Below are positions 36,781 to 52,233 of a stretch of DNA of 64,000 nt, piece after piece. The notes beneath the pieces are model-generated. The model did no database searches. It was not told the origin of the DNA and saw nothing but the letters and a program-made list of their open reading frames with translations. The translations under genes were made by a program, and so were the position numbers. Every line of letters starts with the position of its first letter. Within the stretch, counting starts at the first letter, position 1. The DNA is from Clostridioides difficile ATCC 9689 = DSM 1296 (lineage in GTDB: Bacteria; Bacillota; Clostridia; Peptostreptococcales; Peptostreptococcaceae). The stretch is from the NCBI RefSeq assembly GCF_001077535.1, contig NZ_CP011968.1, forward strand, positions 3,162,001 through 3,226,000, in the 5' to 3' direction.

Positions 36781-36934
36781 GTTATCATTTTTTATTTCTA
36801 AAAATCTTTTCTCAAATGATTTAGTTATCTATTTATCCAATTTTTTACATAATTTAATGATTAAAAATATTAATTTTTTCACTATAAAGTACAAATATTA
36901 TCTGATTATTAAAATAAATATTAATACTATAAAT

Positions 36935-36978
36935 AAAAACGAAGCATGATTTTTATTTAAATAAATCTCAAACTTCGT
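36935..36978 (-). terminator. Terminator after the D-aminoacylase gene
   Basis: On the minus strand ACGAAG and CTTCGT close a stem reinforced by ATTTATTTAAATAAA in the middle, followed by TTTTATT. Confidence 0.75.
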
Positions 36979-37031
36979 CTTTACTTACTTAGATATTTAT
37001 TTACTTTCTAAATCCTATTATTTTTAAAACC

Positions 37032-38633
37032 TTATCTTTTCAATACTTCACCACATTTATTCTCAGTAATCTCTCCATTTTCTAACGCAATTTTTCCATT
37101 TACAATTACATATTCAACACCATTGGCTAGTAATTGTGGCTTTGAAAAATCAATATCTTCTGACCTAGGATAACTATAGTTATCCATGTCAATAACTGCT
37201 ATATCAGCTATCAACCCTTCTTTAAGAATACCTCTATTTTTTATTTTAAATTGCCTAGCTGGTAATGAAGTAACTCTTCTTACAATCTCTTCCAATCTAA
37301 CACCAGACTTTCTGTACATATTGAAGAAAATTGGAAAAGCTCCTCTTCTTTGTAGTTCAAACCATGACATATCCCCACCCACACTAAACAAACAATCTGA
37401 ACCAACCATAACAAATGGATTATCAATTATTTTATCATCATGTAGTTTATCTGGGAAATCAGCTCTATACATTCCTCCTAAACAAAAGATAAGTTCTTCG
37501 TCTCCATCTAAAAGTAAATCGAGTAATAACTTGTCTTCATCTATTCCTTTTTGTGTAGCTATTTCACGTATTGATTTCTTTTCCATATTAATATCTTTAG
37601 TGTTTAGAAGTATTATACTCCCCCTATCTCCAAGTATAAATGCTTCTTTTAATATAAGTGTTCTTCCCTCTTCATTTCTAAGAGCATCCATTACCCCATC
37701 TATACCTAATTCAAATAGACTAGATGATATTGCCATAATAAATTGAATTACTCTTTTTTTCTTCATACAATGCCCAGAACTTCTTGGTACTGTGTCAACC
37801 ATTATTTCAACACCATTATACCTAGCCTTTAATATATCATCAAATGCTTCTATTTCAACTGGACTTAAGTGAGATACTTGAACCCTAGCACCACTTTTTT
37901 GCCCAACCTCTATGGCTTCTTTTACTGCATTATATCTTCCTATGTAATCTCTAATATGAGATGTATATATACCATCATACTCTTTAATCTGCCTTGCAAT
38001 ATCAACAAGTTCATCAATATCAGCATACTTACTTGGTATATATGCCAATCCAGTAGATATTCCAAAAGCACCACTTTTCATTCCATCATTTATTATATCT
38101 GTAATTTCATTTTTTTCCTTTTCTGTAGGAGGTCTATCCTTAGAACCTCCCATAACACTCCATCTTATAGTCCCATGCCCCAACAAGAATCCCATATTAA
38201 CAGAAATACCACTTTTAGATATAAGGTCACAATATTCTGTAAAATTATTCCAACATTTATTTTTATCTATAAGATACTTTTTTTCTTCTTCAAGTAATAG
38301 ACCATTTTTATACATATATTCATACACATTTTCAGAAGAATATGGTGTTATAGAATGTCCACAATTACCATTTATAGTTGTTGTAACTCCTTGTTTTAGA
38401 AACTTTTCAAATTTACCATCTAGTATTGCTACTATTTCTTCATGAACATGAGGGTCAATAAATCCAGGTGTTATAACTTTTCCACAACAATCAATCTCTT
38501 TATTTGTATTGCTATTTATCTTAGAATCTATTTTTGCTATTAAGTTGTCTTTAATTGCTATATCTCCATAAAAACCAGGATTACCTGTACCATCTATTAT
38601 AAATCCATTTTTTAAGATTAAATCATATATCAA
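37032..38633 (-). CDS. D-aminoacylase / N-acyl-D-amino-acid deacylase
   Basis: A 533-residue amidohydrolase that removes acyl groups from N-acyl-D-amino acids. The zinc motif is HVH (His62, His64) in GFIDPHVHEE, followed by the family cysteine Cys91 in GNCGHS. Further ligand blocks are SHIRDYIGRY, VQVSHLSPVE and MVGSDCLF. It starts at a TTG with AGGAGGG eight bases upstream; no usable ATG exists. It is the last gene of the sigma-54 transcript that begins with the M19 dipeptidase at 41380. Together they suggest use of peptides containing D-amino acids. Confidence 0.9.
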   Translation of the reverse strand: MIYDLILKNGFIIDGTGNPGFYGDIAIKDNLIAKIDSKINSNTNKEIDCCGKVITPGFIDPHVHEEIVAILDGKFEKFLKQGVTTTINGNCGHSITPYSSENVYEYMYKNGLLLEEEKKYLIDKNKCWNNFTEYCDLISKSGISVNMGFLLGHGTIRWSVMGGSKDRPPTEKEKNEITDIINDGMKSGAFGISTGLAYIPSKYADIDELVDIARQIKEYDGIYTSHIRDYIGRYNAVKEAIEVGQKSGARVQVSHLSPVEIEAFDDILKARYNGVEIMVDTVPRSSGHCMKKKRVIQFIMAISSSLFELGIDGVMDALRNEEGRTLILKEAFILGDRGSIILLNTKDINMEKKSIREIATQKGIDEDKLLLDLLLDGDEELIFCLGGMYRADFPDKLHDDKIIDNPFVMVGSDCLFSVGGDMSWFELQRRGAFPIFFNMYRKSGVRLEEIVRRVTSLPARQFKIKNRGILKEGLIADIAVIDMDNYSYPRSEDIDFSKPQLLANGVEYVIVNGKIALENGEITENKCGEVLKR

Positions 38634-38743
38634 AATATTCCCTCCTTAAAAACCAATTTTTAAATAATCTTAATGTAATTTTTATATTTGAAAATCAAAT
38701 TATTATATTTCATATTTGAAAATTCACTATTATTTCATTGTAA

Positions 38744-39421
38744 TTAGTCACTAAGCTTATCTTTATACATAGCTCTTGCAATTAATATAGTACCAAATAC
38801 ACATATAAGAACTACTAGAGACTGTGGTATTATACCTTGCTTTGATAATATAATAGTCAATACAGATATTACAATTGCTACTAGACCTAATTTTTTATCT
38901 TGTAAAAATACTTGTCCAAAAACTGACCCAAATAGAGCTGGTAAAATTAAGTTTAATTTTTCTACTACTTCAGCTGGAATTTTAGATAATACGCTTCCTC
39001 CTAAAATTACCCCTATAGTTAGTATACTTATATTCACTAAAATAGATACAGCTATTCCTATTGTAGATATTATCGAGCCTTCTTCTGTACCTGATTCAAC
39101 TTCTGCTGCCTTTTGAGCTGCTATTGAACATGGTAGCCTCATATTAGATATATTACCAGAAAGAAAACTCATATAAGTTCCTGGGATACCTAAGATTGGT
39201 GAATAAGAAACTGGTTCTATTATGTAATTTGGAGCACTCATACTGACAATTGCCATTGTACTTGCTAATAATGCTGATATTGGAGGCATAATACCAAATC
39301 CAAAGCTCAAAATTATTCCAGGAACTAATGCTGCTATAATACCCAAAGATAGTGTTAGTCTTCCATACCTTATCATAAAAGGTAAATATTCTTCATTGTA
39401 TATAGATTTTACTTTACTCAT
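38744..39421 (-). CDS. Membrane protein, second of a pair (possible transporter subunit)
   Basis: A 225-residue protein with about six hydrophobic helices (LGIIAALVPGIILSFGFG, PPISALLASTMAIVS, VSILVNISILTIGVILGG). I do not recognise a family with certainty. It lies 12 bp after another six-helix protein, inside the dipeptidase/D-aminoacylase operon. The two are likely halves of one small-molecule importer for the operon substrate. GGGGGGAG precedes the ATG. Confidence 0.6.
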   Translation of the reverse strand: MSKVKSIYNEEYLPFMIRYGRLTLSLGIIAALVPGIILSFGFGIMPPISALLASTMAIVSMSAPNYIIEPVSYSPILGIPGTYMSFLSGNISNMRLPCSIAAQKAAEVESGTEEGSIISTIGIAVSILVNISILTIGVILGGSVLSKIPAEVVEKLNLILPALFGSVFGQVFLQDKKLGLVAIVISVLTIILSKQGIIPQSLVVLICVFGTILIARAMYKDKLSD

Positions 39422-39433
39422 AAAACTCCCCCC

Positions 39434-40129
39434 TTATATTACTGAAGCTATTATCATTCCGCTAAACATTGATATTGTAAGCCCCCACTCTCTTAACCAT
39501 TTTATATTTTTCTTCTTTTCAAGCATACACAATATTACCATTATAGCCATTCCACTTATACATGCAATTGTTCCATTATCAAAACGCAACACCCTATCAG
39601 CATTTAGATATGCAAATGAACCCAACATTGCTCCTAGAGATATTATTGGTATAAATGATTTCTTGCCACTAGATATAACATTGGTTATCTTATCTAGTTT
39701 ATGTCCAAATAGTAATGTGAATATTATCCATCCTAAAGAACCTAATATCATAGTCCAAACTGCATTTGTAAATGCAAGTTTTGTCATTTCAGGAGAACCT
39801 AAAGTTATACCTAATGCATCTGTTCCAAATCCGGCTGACATTGATTCAAAAATTACAGAACCTATAAATGATAATCTCATCCATGCTATAGGCCCACCCA
39901 TAGTTACTATAAGCGATACCATTCCAGCAAATATAGTCATTGAAGGCCCAATAGCTGAAATAGCACTACTCTTAACAGCTGACTTTATTTGTTTATCTGT
40001 TATTCCCATTGTTTTACCAACTTTGCAAGATTTTATAGCAAATATAAGGGATTGTACCACTACTATTGATACTGCTACTGTACTCGCTATCCACAAAAGT
40101 GGATGATTAGCTAATTTTAAATAATCCAT
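39434..40129 (-). CDS. DUF5058-like membrane protein, first of a pair
   Basis: A 231-residue protein with about six transmembrane helices, resembling from memory the DUF5058 family. Notable stretches are HPLLWIASTVAVSIVVVQS, SAIGPSMTIFAGMVSLIV and a GGPIAWMRLSFIGS turn. It lies between the M19 dipeptidase (51 bp) and its partner membrane protein (12 bp). GGGAGG supports the ATG. I infer that the two form a transporter for dipeptides or acyl-amino acids; there is no direct proof. Confidence 0.65.
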   Translation of the reverse strand: MDYLKLANHPLLWIASTVAVSIVVVQSLIFAIKSCKVGKTMGITDKQIKSAVKSSAISAIGPSMTIFAGMVSLIVTMGGPIAWMRLSFIGSVIFESMSAGFGTDALGITLGSPEMTKLAFTNAVWTMILGSLGWIIFTLLFGHKLDKITNVISSGKKSFIPIISLGAMLGSFAYLNADRVLRFDNGTIACISGMAIMVILCMLEKKKNIKWLREWGLTISMFSGMIIASVI

Positions 40130-40180
40130 TTATAAAACCTCCCTATAAATCCTCAAATTTTATTAATATTTCTAATATAT

Positions 40181-41380
40181 CTATTTCCAAACCTGTTTTA
40201 GTACTCTAAGTATATTTCCACCTAGTACCTTCTCTATTTCCTCATCACTATATCCATGCTTTACTAAATATCTAACAATGTTTTTTGAAGTTTCTGTTGG
40301 GTTCTCAAGACCTTCTACATATTCTACTTTGGGATGTTCTTTTGTTCCTGTTATTTTTTTTATATCAAATTTAGCAGCTAGTACTGAGTGTAATTTTACA
40401 TGGTCGCCATATACTGTATCTGGTCCAAAAGCTACATGGTCTATTCCTACTAAATTTTTAATATACTCAAAATGTTCCATAAATGACTCTATTGAATGTT
40501 CTTTATTCTTCTCTGTTATTGTAGTATGAGGTGCTGCTTCTACACCTATAACCCCTCCTTTTTTAGCACATGCTATTAATACTTCATCTGGAGTTAGTCT
40601 CTTTGTGTTCCATAAACTTCTTGCCCCAACATGGCTTAATATTATTGGGTCCTTGCTATATTCTATTACATCAAGTGTAGTTTGAACTCCAACGTGAGAG
40701 CAATCTATTGCCATTCCAATTTTATTCATTCTTTCAACAGCTTTTTTCCCAAAATTTGTAAGACCTCCATCTTTCTCTTCTTTTAGTCCTGAACCTAATG
40801 CATTGGATTCGCTGTATGTTATACCCATTAACCTTATACCAAATCCATACAGTATATCTATTCTGTCAAGTTCATTTTCTATTGGTGCTGCACCTTCTAA
40901 TGTTGGTATCAATGCTACTTTACCTTCACTTTTAGCTCTGTATATATCTTCTACTTTTTCACACTTTATGACAAAATCTTGATGAGCTAAATCACATAGT
41001 CTCATGCCTAAATCTATTAATATATCATCCCATTTCCACCCTGAATTTGATGTTATCGTACATACACCATCCATTAAATTATCAAATATAGCATCATAAT
41101 ATCCTCTTGATAATGCTTCATAAGCGCATCTTTGTTTACCTTCCCTATTATATTCAAATATATCTCTTTCTAGGTGTTCTGGAAATAATACTGGATGTTC
41201 ATGTAATGATATAAATATTTTTTCATCCACTATACTTTTAACCTTCGCTTCTTGAATATCATCTAATTCAATAAGGTACTCTTTAACTCTTTTATCTCCT
41301 TTACACATCTCAATAGATGAAATATCTTTTCCTTTTTCTAAATAACTATAGGCTTCATATCCTTTGTAAGCTGACTTCAT
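40181..41380 (-). CDS. Membrane dipeptidase (M19 family)
   Basis: A 399-residue zinc dipeptidase of the renal-dipeptidase family, members of which accept a D-residue at the second position. The conserved glutamate is in LIPTLEGAAPIEN, and His ligands lie in AIDCSHVG and ILSHVGARSLWN. The first metal motif reads HEHP in ISLHEHPVLFPE, where the classical family has HxD. I start at the ATG at 41380; the TTG at 41395 overlaps the GGAGG ribosome site. No signal peptide, so it acts in the cytoplasm. It is the first gene behind a sigma-54 promoter. Confidence 0.9.
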   Translation of the reverse strand: MKSAYKGYEAYSYLEKGKDISSIEMCKGDKRVKEYLIELDDIQEAKVKSIVDEKIFISLHEHPVLFPEHLERDIFEYNREGKQRCAYEALSRGYYDAIFDNLMDGVCTITSNSGWKWDDILIDLGMRLCDLAHQDFVIKCEKVEDIYRAKSEGKVALIPTLEGAAPIENELDRIDILYGFGIRLMGITYSESNALGSGLKEEKDGGLTNFGKKAVERMNKIGMAIDCSHVGVQTTLDVIEYSKDPIILSHVGARSLWNTKRLTPDEVLIACAKKGGVIGVEAAPHTTITEKNKEHSIESFMEHFEYIKNLVGIDHVAFGPDTVYGDHVKLHSVLAAKFDIKKITGTKEHPKVEYVEGLENPTETSKNIVRYLVKHGYSDEEIEKVLGGNILRVLKQVWK

Positions 41381-41425
41381 AACAACATCCTCCAAGTTCT
41401 ACAATTTTTTATATTTTTCCTATGT

Positions 41426-41441
41426 AGCAATTGATGTGCCA
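41426..41441 (-). promoter_or_regulatory. Sigma-54 promoter of the dipeptidase operon
   Basis: The minus strand reads TGGCAC-ATCAA-TTGCT, a full match to the -24/-12 consensus TGGCAC-N5-TTGCW. Transcription would start near 41415, about 35 bases before the ATG at 41380. Confidence 0.93.
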
Positions 41442-41482
41442 AAATATAAATTTTAATTGTATAATAAATCTTGCAAAAAATA

Positions 41483-41517
41483 AAAACAGTAGTAAGGTTG
41501 ATATTTACTACTGTTTT
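41483..41517 (-). terminator. Terminator after the enhancer-binding regulator
   Basis: AAAACAGTAGTAA and TTACTACTGTTTT are exact complements with a nine-base loop, ending in T residues on the minus strand. Confidence 0.88.
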
Positions 41518-41522
41518 ATTAA

Positions 41523-41583
41523 AAATAATCTTCTTAGATTATTTATTCAATATTTTTGAATTATCTTAATCTTAAAGATAATT
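41523..41583. promoter_or_regulatory. Two inverted repeats, probable enhancer sites
   Basis: AAATAATCT-TCTT-AGATTATTT (41523-41544) and AATTATCTT-N7-AAGATAATT (41559-41583) are both perfect. Their centres lie about 119 and 156 bp upstream of the predicted start near 41415, the normal distance for sites bound by sigma-54 activators. The activator gene lies immediately upstream. Confidence 0.7.
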
Positions 41584-41640
41584 TTATTTATTTCTATCCA
41601 TTATAGGGATTTTTTTAGGGTGTTTTGCCTTTTTAGTCCC

Positions 41641-43686
41641 CTATATCACTCCCTTAATTTTTACATATGATATAAAGTTCTTTCCTTCATCAGTTATAAA
41701 ACTACCTTGTTTTTTTACTCCAGATAAAAGTAAACCATGGCTCTTTAACTTATCTATTCTTTTTCTAATTTGGTCTACACTTAAAACTATATCTTTTTCT
41801 TTTAAAATCTCTTGCAGTTTATTTCTTCCTAATAATATATTTTTATTATTCCAAGTTTCTATACTGGTCAATATACATATACTTTCCTCAAAGAAATTAG
41901 ATTGTTTGAAATCTAAGATAATTGAATCGAAATTTTCATTAACTAAAGTATTGTTTTTTTCAAATCTAAATTGTTCTGGCAAATGCTCGTAATCTACTCT
42001 ATCTTCCTCAACTATAGTATCAATATAATAAATTAAATTTTTAAGCTCTCTTACATTTCCTGGCCATTCATACAATGTTAAAGCTTGCATTGATTCCTCT
42101 GTAAAACATTTGTTGCTATTTATTTCATCTAAAAAATACTTACTTATAAGAGGTATATCTTCCTTACGTTCTCTAAGTCTAGGTATCTCTATATGTAATA
42201 CATTAATCCTATAATACAAATCTTCTCTAAAGGAACCTTCTTTAATTTTTTTCTTTAAATCTTTATTTGTTGCAGCTATAATTCTAACATCTATTGGTAT
42301 AATTTTACTTCCGCCCATTCTCATAACTTCTTTTTCCTGTAATACTCTTAGCAATCTCTGCTGTACATCTAAAGATATATCACCTATCTCATCTAAAAAA
42401 ATTGTTCCTGTGTGTGCTCTTTCAAATATACCCATTTTCCCACCTTTTATTGCTCCTGTAAAACTTCCTTCATCATAGCCAAAAAGTTCACTTTCAATAA
42501 GTGTATCTGACAAAGAAGATAGATTAACTGCAACAAATGGCTTGTTTTTTCTTAGAGATTCATTATGTATTGCCTGGGCAAATATTTCTTTTCCTGTTCC
42601 ATTTTCTCCAAGTATCAACACAGAAAAGTCTGTAGTTGCTATTTTTCTTGCAATATTAATTTTTTCTTTTATTATTTTACTCTCACCTACAACACTCTCA
42701 AATGTATACTTTGATACAAAACCTTTTGACTGAAGTTTATTTTGAATCTTGTCCTCAAGCTCTTGAATTGCACTTATATTTTTAATGCTTATAATACTCT
42801 TTATTCGTTCATTATTTTCATAAACATTTACTTTATTAATTATCAGTTTTTTGTTATTTAAATTTACTACTTCATCATTAACTTCATCTTCTTGAAAAAA
42901 TATTTTTTTGACAACCTTATCACTAAATAAGTCCATAAAGTTATTAGATATAATTTCATTTTGGTCTATTCCAACTAGATTAGAAAATACTTTGTTGCAA
43001 TATATAAATTTTCCTAATTTATCAACAGAAGCAATACCTTCATCTATAATCTCCAAAAAACTCTTCATGGTTTTATTCATAGTTGTATAATACCTATATC
43101 CACTTACTGTATCTTCATTGTATTTTTCCTTAATAATATGTAATTTATCTATAGATATATTTAGTTTTGTAAAGATTTCTATAACTGTATTTATATCAAT
43201 TACCTTATCACCTATGTCAATTATTTGCTTTATGTTTTGTGGTATGCTGTTTCTGCTTCCTGTAATAATTCCAATCTCACATTTAGACTTATCACAACCT
43301 GGATAATATGGTATTAGATTAATATGAATTAATCCTAGTTTTCTAATTATCTTGGCAGTTTCATCTGCTGACTCTTTATAAGCATCTATAACCATAACAT
43401 CAGAATCATTTTCTATACTTATTATCTGATTTATATTTTCAATATTTATAGTACGATGTACTATTACAATAGGTATATTTTTATCAATATTATTATGTAT
43501 ATATTCCTTTATATCATTGTCTGAACATACTACAAGCTCATAGCTTGACAGTTCAATATTTATCCTATTTACATATACCAAGTTATCTATATTACAAAAT
43601 TCTCCAAATATATTTTCCAATTGTTTTGATATATCTATATTTATTTTGTCATCAGTTGATACAAATAAAATATTATGTTTTTTCAT
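41641..43686 (-). CDS. Sigma-54-dependent activator with unusual C-terminal domain
   Basis: A 681-residue enhancer-binding protein. The first 200 residues are an uncharacterised sensor region with a receiver- or PrpR-like start. A PAS domain follows (about 215-310: ILEIIDEGIASVDKLGKFIYCNK). The AAA+ domain is at about 325-560, with Walker A GENGTGKE, the sigma-54 loop GSFTGA (usual GAFTGA) and Walker B FLDEIGDISLDVQQRLLRVL. The final 110 residues are not a Fis-type helix-turn-helix; they look like a winged helix (NKLQEILKEKDIVLSVDQIR, then GLLLSGVKKQGSFITDEGK). It probably activates the divergently placed dipeptidase operon through the paired repeats between them. Confidence 0.92.
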   Translation of the reverse strand: MKKHNILFVSTDDKINIDISKQLENIFGEFCNIDNLVYVNRINIELSSYELVVCSDNDIKEYIHNNIDKNIPIVIVHRTINIENINQIISIENDSDVMVIDAYKESADETAKIIRKLGLIHINLIPYYPGCDKSKCEIGIITGSRNSIPQNIKQIIDIGDKVIDINTVIEIFTKLNISIDKLHIIKEKYNEDTVSGYRYYTTMNKTMKSFLEIIDEGIASVDKLGKFIYCNKVFSNLVGIDQNEIISNNFMDLFSDKVVKKIFFQEDEVNDEVVNLNNKKLIINKVNVYENNERIKSIISIKNISAIQELEDKIQNKLQSKGFVSKYTFESVVGESKIIKEKINIARKIATTDFSVLILGENGTGKEIFAQAIHNESLRKNKPFVAVNLSSLSDTLIESELFGYDEGSFTGAIKGGKMGIFERAHTGTIFLDEIGDISLDVQQRLLRVLQEKEVMRMGGSKIIPIDVRIIAATNKDLKKKIKEGSFREDLYYRINVLHIEIPRLRERKEDIPLISKYFLDEINSNKCFTEESMQALTLYEWPGNVRELKNLIYYIDTIVEEDRVDYEHLPEQFRFEKNNTLVNENFDSIILDFKQSNFFEESICILTSIETWNNKNILLGRNKLQEILKEKDIVLSVDQIRKRIDKLKSHGLLLSGVKKQGSFITDEGKNFISYVKIKGVI

Positions 43687-44095
43687 AGTCCCACCTCCTG
43701 TTTAACGAGTATAGAAAGTAATAATTTGGTCTATTGTAGCACTTTTTAAAAAAGTTTTAAATCTTAAAAATCAAATTTTGTACCATTTACTATTATTTTC
43801 CATAATAAAATAATGTAAGCTATTTTTTTCACATATAATTTAATTTCTAAAACGGTTAGTTTGACATTATTGGAATATAAACAAAAATTTAATATAAATT
43901 CGTTAATATATTAATACATTTTTAAGAATGATAAGGAATAAATTATAACAAATTTTAGGAATATATAATAATAGGGTCTCAGAACTTAGTTACAAGTTCT
44001 AAAACCCTATTTGTTTAGTGTAAAAAACATCATAAAATTTAGCTTAAATCTTTTCACATAATATTACTCTTTTTCTAAGTGATAATAAAATATAT
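43687..44095. other. 409-bp gap upstream of the sigma-54 activator
   Basis: Contains the terminator of the upstream hydrolase gene (43971-44010) and the activator promoter region. I found no sigma-54 motif for the activator itself and no operator-like repeat. The sequence is otherwise plain A/T-rich DNA. Confidence 0.5.
43971..44010 (-). terminator. Terminator after the alpha/beta hydrolase gene
   Basis: ATAGGGT and ACCCTAT close the base, and AGAACTT pairs with AAGTTCT around a six-base loop. Confidence 0.8.
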
Positions 44096-52147: not shown

Positions 52148-52177
52148 ATGATAACTAAAGATACAAACTCTATATAT

Positions 52178-52192
52178 TGGCATATTAATTGC
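52178..52192 (+). promoter_or_regulatory. Sigma-54 promoter of the permease/lyase operon
   Basis: TGGCAT-ATTA-ATTGC matches the -24/-12 consensus with one substitution (GGCAT for GGCAC) and correct GG-GC spacing. The start would be near 52204, 30 bases before the permease ATG. Confidence 0.88.
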
Positions 52193-52233
52193 TTTTATAA
52201 TACCTATATAAAAATGAAAGGGAGTGATACTAG

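Follow-up and report, generated by a model that had tools for sequence, protein, structure and literature searches.

The window analysed here is a stretch of 64,000 nucleotides (nt) from the genome of Clostridioides difficile ATCC 9689 = DSM 1296, and its subject is a set of five open reading frames (ORFs) on the minus strand. Read along that strand, the set contains the gene for a sigma-54 activator (enhancer-binding protein, EBP), a short intergenic region and the genes for an M19-like hydrolase, a DUF5058 protein, a second membrane protein and a D-aminoacylase-like hydrolase. The genes, coordinates and single strand given in the original prediction agree with the ORF list. The activator, both enzymes and the membrane pair were syntenic in all eight Clostridioides genomes searched. 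The two membrane proteins form an obligate pair which, judging by its gene neighbourhoods, most likely imports peptides or N-acyl amino acids. The features of the locus are as follows (aa, amino acids).

41641..43686, minus strand: sigma-54 activator (EBP), 681 aa, PAS and AAA+ with GSFTGA; corresponds to CD2863 by gene order and promoter identity
41559..41583, no strand assigned: 9-bp perfect inverted repeat, candidate activator site, not conserved (repeat scan and alignment of relatives)
41523..41544, no strand assigned: 9-bp perfect inverted repeat, candidate activator site, not conserved (repeat scan and alignment of relatives)
41483..41517, minus strand: 13-bp perfect inverted repeat with a T-rich tail, likely intrinsic terminator of the activator gene (z -4.6)
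41426..41442, minus strand: -24/-12 sigma-54 promoter TTGGCACATCAATTGCT (pattern scan; identity with the published CD2862 promoter)
40181..41395, minus strand: M19-like metallohydrolase of a variant subfamily (H-E-H), corresponds to CD2862; likely start ATG 41380
39434..40129, minus strand: DUF5058 membrane protein, 231 aa, subunit A of the pair (PF16481, 251 bits; predicted local distance difference test, pLDDT, 83.4; hydrophobic segments)
38744..39421, minus strand: partner membrane protein, 225 aa, subunit B, without a Pfam or NCBIfam family (pLDDT 86.1; hydrophobic segments)
37032..38633, minus strand: D-aminoacylase-like amidohydrolase of a variant subfamily, 533 aa, TTG start (profile and alignments)
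36930..36987, minus strand: terminator-like hairpin 3' of the amidohydrolase gene (z -6.9)

Promoter, activator and transcription units

A consensus -24/-12 promoter and an adjacent enhancer-binding activator had been predicted, and both are present. The promoter has GG at -24 and GC at -12 in the right spacing, above chance: the pattern TTGGCAYRNNNNTTGCT gave 19 matches in the genome searched (about 4.15 Mb, two contigs), compared with none for the backward-read control. A box of the -24/-12 type lies upstream of the M19 gene in 7/7 congeners fetched (L073–L076 are apparently the same contigs as four of these seven and were not counted twice). The activator carries a sigma-54 activator domain (PF00158, 227.7 bits) with the Walker A motif GENGTGKE and a GSFTGA loop, i.e., the AAA+ domain and GAFTGA-type loop of an EBP. 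GSFTGA is a working variant of the loop (PMC6615313; this paper, PMC7438776, PMC9210968 and PMC12507026 are cited for part of their text).

The 17-bp promoter core TTGGCACATCAATTGCT and its flank are letter-identical to the CD2862 promoter printed for strain 630 (PMC7438776). In Table 4 of that paper, CD2862–CD2860 are given as a SigL unit of C. difficile 630 with a mapped promoter and with CD2863 as the associated regulator; the unit covers the promoter, the activator, the dipeptidase gene and both membrane genes. As far as the promoter and the activator are concerned, the predicted sigma-54 module is thus correct and already published. In the part of PMC7438776 cited, the amidohydrolase gene is absent from this unit, and no function is given for the membrane proteins. 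The SigL unit with CD2862 does not appear in the sigma-54 table in the cited part of PMC6615313; CD2860, CD2862 and CD2863 are not named in PMC9130780, nor are the R20291 locus tags of these genes in PMC12069270.

Three perfect inverted repeats with arms of at least 9 nt lie between the activator gene and the promoter, and not two as originally predicted. The longest (41483–41517) has 13-nt arms and a T-rich tail, forms a much more stable fold than its shuffles do (z -4.6) and is best read, from these properties, as the terminator of the activator gene itself; a shorter form of it is kept in three of four aligned Clostridioides relatives (L073–L076). Since this repeat looks like a terminator, the activator and its target genes are probably separate transcription units. 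The two repeats with 9-nt arms (41523–41544 and 41559–41583) are modestly above chance (in 1000 shuffles, two or more hits were obtained in 36 and three or more in 7) and are candidate activator-binding sites. They are lost as repeats in all four of these relatives, in which the promoter and terminator region is kept.

The set had also been predicted to run without a terminator until 36978. This is borne out for the stretch after the promoter, where no terminator-like structure was found in the 110-nt gap before the amidohydrolase gene (folding z 0.03) and where a strong, A+T-rich, terminator-like hairpin (approximately 36987–36930, z -6.9) follows that gene; it probably fails behind the activator gene, where the likely terminator 41483–41517 lies. 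A simple scan found no terminator-like sites on the minus strand of 36900–43900 and also overlooked the A+T-rich hairpin. The amidohydrolase gene may be co-transcribed with the genes upstream of it. For the M19-like gene, a GGAGG (41393–41389) precedes ATG 41380, which is probably the start codon rather than TTG 41395.

The membrane pair and its gene neighbourhoods

The DUF5058 protein (39434–40129) matches PF16481 with 251 bits (gathering cut-off 28.2), and no literature on DUF5058 was found by name. The partner protein of the window has no Pfam or NCBIfam family, and the 27 members scanned of its group give no more than isolated stray matches (E of at least 0.011). DUF5058 was above the cut-off in 31 of 398 genomes of the phylum and in 0 of 14 control genomes. 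All 32 neighbourhoods of a first set, of which 30 come from genomes drawn evenly across the phylum and two are the copies of the own genome, have the partner directly after DUF5058. A scan of genome contigs with a partner profile confirmed 182 places. The best 80 of these were retained, and in 79 of them DUF5058 lies directly upstream of the partner; the remaining locus begins at a contig edge. The median gap between the two genes is 13 nt, and no fused DUF5058–partner ORF was found among the ORFs of both locus sets (32 and 80). The pair was found also in the archaeon Halopenitus persicus (L140) and in metagenome-assembled genomes (MAGs) labelled Spirochaetes and Dehalococcoidia. The distances of DUF5058 correlate with those of the partner at r 0.92 (70 loci), compared with 0.63 and 0.58 against the following hydrolase (64 loci). 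The two membrane proteins stay together while the enzyme changes.

Arg85 and Glu95 of DUF5058 are invariant in 26 of 26 and in 71 of 71 rows, and the helices of the pair carry invariant Arg, Glu, Asn, Tyr and Ser. The 26-row DUF5058 alignment comprises 25 of 30 full-length locus proteins and the window protein, and the partner alignment has 27 rows (26 of 30 and the window protein); the A8/A9 alignments omit six near-duplicate loci and odd lengths. The predicted monomer models are all-helical, with helices broken near the conserved motifs (pLDDT 83.4 for DUF5058 and 86.1 for the partner). No convincing solved relatives of the subunits were found by sequence, and no convincing fold match was obtained; as each model shows one subunit of what is likely a complex, this gives nothing firm on a new fold. 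Homology between the two subunits was undetectable (hhalign probability 0.6 and 0.3 percent). In the own genome, a similarity to UppP scored 23.3 bits, below the cut-off, and was dropped, the locus concerned encoding, as read, a UppP-like protein; a SemiSWEET match (E 0.0084) was dropped as chance. Viral contigs gave four pattern matches and no relative of the pair. In L038, the DUF5058 gene has an in-frame TGA and reads as two ORFs, and the partner is intact.

The strongest argument for transport by the pair is a swap within the enzyme set. Close relatives of the M19-like protein (55–68% identical, the next similarity being 42% or lower) were found as 12 copies in 11 of 397 other genomes of the phylum, and DUF5058 and the partner are present in none of these 11 loci. 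Both enzyme subfamilies occur together in four of the 11 (L216, L217, L219 and L220), where the amidohydrolase is 42–55% identical to that of the window and 30–32% to that of copy 2, the second own-genome copy of the pair. Components of an oligopeptide ATP-binding cassette (ABC) transporter were found by permease clustering in 6 of the 11 loci, including all four with the amidohydrolase; Pfam tests gave permeases in L217 and L219 and binding proteins in L220, L221 and L223, and L216 was assigned by clustering. The swapped-in systems include SBP_bac_5 binding proteins. The clusters of L216, L217, L219 and L220 contain the oligopeptide ABC transporter together with M19-like (again 55–68% identical to the window's), D-aminoacylase-like and M24 genes, and no activator of the window's type was found in them. 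The same two enzymes accompany an ABC importer in four loci of relatives and the membrane pair in 8/8 Clostridioides genomes. Since the ABC transporter stands in the place of the pair beside the same enzymes, the pair most likely does that transporter's job.

Following genes were collected for 74 of the 80 loci (five have an opposite-strand neighbour and one has none). Based on Pfam, 60 of the 74 are M20_dimer, 52 Peptidase_M20, 9 M42 and 4 Amidohydro_3, the last four being the Clostridioides genes; an M20-type or Amidohydro_3 hydrolase is next in at least 64. TIGR01891 (M20D amidohydrolase) was found in 56 of the 74. The next-but-one genes (52 of 57, with four Clostridioides loci and L083 left out) include 26 PucR regulators and 13 M20_dimer proteins. 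Five or more places off, M20 families occur in at most 1 of 67 genes (one per locus, from 174), an upper bound among the control families listed (25 of 96). In the evenly drawn set, 23 of the 32 loci have such a hydrolase near the pair: clustering gives 20 of the M20 type, five of them Pfam-tested, and three more have the amidohydrolase. Loci without an M20-type or amidohydrolase neighbour exist, e.g., L043, L054, L055 and L064. The original prediction had named regular association with unrelated enzymes as evidence against a transporter; this check was run and did not refute the transporter, the commonest neighbour being M20 and not M19 or D-aminoacylase.

From the usual M20D partners, it is conceivable, if rather doubtful, that the module acts on an N-acyl amino acid from the free pool or the diet, or on a modified dipeptide similar to aminobenzoyl-glutamate. 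The frequency of TIGR01891 speaks for such a substrate, and a parallel to M20D beside the pair may be seen in E. coli, where AbgA/AbgB accompany AbgT. However, no M20 gene adjoins the pair in the module of the window, and the oligopeptide ABC swap points to peptides.

Copy 2 (L004, 5761–8889) consists of DUF5058, the partner and an amidohydrolase in the same order, 32%, 34% and 31% identical to their counterparts in the window. It differs in having neither an M19 gene nor a sigma-54 activator in the fetched 12 kb. The copy-2 set (L004:5761–10569) continues with a 440-aa helix-turn-helix-type regulator and is present in four of eight Clostridioides genomes; the copy-2 regulator and the window's activator were compared, and a shared sensor was not found. 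In L186, the copy-2 amidohydrolase reads as two ORFs (454 and 93 aa) and may be interrupted there. A MAG labelled Clostridioides sp. (L098, with the same layout as L176) has two DUF5058–partner pairs in tandem, of which the second precedes a canonical M19 gene (motif DLHCDT).

The two hydrolases and the response to WalR

Both hydrolases belong to the families originally predicted, and the activities implied by the family names are what the alignments call into question. The M19 assignment of the 40181–41395 protein is clear (PF01244, 240.6 bits, cut-off 26, model positions 74–319), but it does not amount to a proven dipeptidase activity: the N-terminal motif is LHEHP (H-E-H). The canonical metal motif of M19 is H-x-D, seen as DLHCDT in L176. 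H-[DE]-H was found in 12/12 close relatives, and the M19 relatives with this motif in place of H-x-D (window 40181–41395, L193–L203 and L214) look like an uncharacterised subfamily.

The 37032–38633 protein matches the Amidohydro_3 profile and keeps the D-aminoacylase metal ligands HxH, Cys, His and His (alignment with 1m7j) as well as the metal-ligand Asp (alignment with L004, L056 and L061). It lacks the Lys and Tyr columns, having SHLS and PRSSG versus SH[LH]K and PY in L004, L056 and L061; among its four close relatives, the Lys is kept in one (L220) and the Tyr in none. In D-aminoacylase, the Lys after SHx and the Tyr of PYxA have a substrate-binding role. Judging by these columns, both enzymes belong to variant subfamilies whose active-site motifs are altered. 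It should be noted that a D-aminoacylase homologue of C. difficile, UacY, was assigned to uric acid breakdown (PMC12507026); it belongs to the same enzyme family as the amidohydrolase of the window but to a different locus and pathway. Thus, the family name does not fix the substrate. With their shared active-site changes, the two hydrolases look like a second unnamed unit that is worth assaying.

A link with the cell envelope, direct or indirect, has independent experimental support. Only two genes exceed the 4-fold cut-off both on WalR overexpression and on wal knock-down. The M19 gene (CD630_28620) is one of them, with values, apparently log2, of 2.29 in the former condition and of -2.53 and -1.43 in the latter, and a reporter with the approximately 300-bp R20291 promoter of this gene confirmed the same direction (PMC9210968). 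The effect of WalR on the M19 gene may be indirect. No WalR site (TGTWAH-N5-TGTWAH) with two or fewer mismatches was found in 41396–41641; the motif occurs with two mismatches at 41676, inside the activator gene, and 41621 is an exact match to the loose motif, which has 684 intergenic hits in PMC9210968. The other strongly WalR-dependent gene, cd630_05300-05280 (Table 3 of PMC9210968), also heads a set given as "membrane protein, membrane protein, amidohydrolase". In the own genome, the partner profile finds no copies beyond the two already known, so the membrane genes of that set would be a different pair, if present; they were not located in the window.

On these data, cell-wall recycling has to be considered, in which the pair would import peptidoglycan-derived peptides with D-residues and both hydrolases would cut them. 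The WalR response of the M19 gene and the D-aminoacylase fold of the amidohydrolase are consistent with it, as is, weakly, the presence of an Asp/Glu racemase gene in the vicinity of two of the 11 relatives (10 proteins from four loci tested). However, the WalR motif matches are weak and the effect may be indirect, the membrane genes are not given as changed alongside the M19 gene in the cited part of PMC9210968, and the Lys and Tyr columns of the canonical D-aminoacylase are replaced; we regard this possibility as unlikely. For a cell-wall origin of the substrate, the evidence is the published WalR data; D-amino acids as the substrate of the module, as originally proposed, would find slight support in the same response and in the racemase genes.

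Proposed function of the module

Based on the above results, we suggest, with a probability of about 0.6, that the module is a sigma-54-switched catabolic unit for a peptide or an N-acyl amino acid, with the pair as the importer. The sigma-54 RNA polymerase would wait at the published -24/-12 promoter until the adjacent CD2863-type activator, on sensing its ligand, opens it. DUF5058 and the partner would form one two-subunit membrane transporter, importing the substrate without an ATPase or a binding protein encoded at the locus. No hydrophobic segments were found in the activator or in either enzyme, so the substrate must come in. The two putatively cytosolic metallohydrolases, the H-E-H variant of M19 and the variant of the D-aminoacylase family, would then split its amide bonds, and the freed amino acids would feed fermentation. 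The unrecognised transporter of the original prediction is supported as probable by the obligate pairing, the r of 0.92, the amide-hydrolase neighbours and the ABC swap; it survives the tests run and is strengthened. The obligate pairing, the partner without a family, the hydrolase context and the ABC swap are new here.

Several points weigh against this proposal. Shared descent, too, increases mirror-tree correlation and the conservation of gene neighbourhoods, and no convincing match of either subunit to a known transporter was obtained from its sequence or monomer fold. The usual partner enzyme is M20, so the substrate in C. difficile is not readable from the relatives. The SigL fold change for CD2862 is blank in Table 4 of PMC7438776. 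In addition, the 110-nt gap before the amidohydrolase gene is long, and the operon entries in the cited parts of PMC7438776 and PMC9210968 end before this gene.

It is improbable that the pair exports products (amino acids or acyl acids) instead of importing the substrate. Small two-subunit exporters such as AzlCD exist, but no import system is encoded at the locus, the enzymes would be cytosolic, and the swapped-in ABC system with SBP_bac_5 is an importer. If the pair were instead an enzyme or a sensor complex in the membrane, with the same substrates, this would suit the lack of transporter homology and the invariant helix residues (Arg, Glu, Asn, Tyr and Ser), but it is improbable as well, given the ABC swap and two multi-helix proteins without a soluble domain.

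Known systems that resemble the module in the joint encoding of a hydrolase or of a small secondary carrier with several subunits are AbgABT, YjiGH-IadA, MadLM and AzlCD; no Pfam or NCBIfam family of these systems is matched by the pair. As a tentative extension of the importer proposal, DUF5058 and the partner could be the halves of a new heteromeric family of secondary transporters with an unsolved fold, in Bacillota and beyond, that replaces ATP-driven peptide importers before amide hydrolases and that, in Clostridioides, serves under sigma-54 and WalR to reclaim peptides with D-residues. The Stickland fermentation of C. difficile is fed by the uptake of peptides and amino acids, and the two membrane proteins have no assigned function. 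A widespread and obligate pair of this kind, accompanied by hydrolases of the M20, M19-like and D-aminoacylase-like types, would supply a missing uptake route for many anaerobes of gut and sediment, and the ABC swap gives a concrete, testable prediction of its cargo.

Also, another exact -24/-12 match (TTGGCATATTAATTGCT) was found at 52177–52193 on the plus strand, which points to a second sigma-54 unit in the same window.

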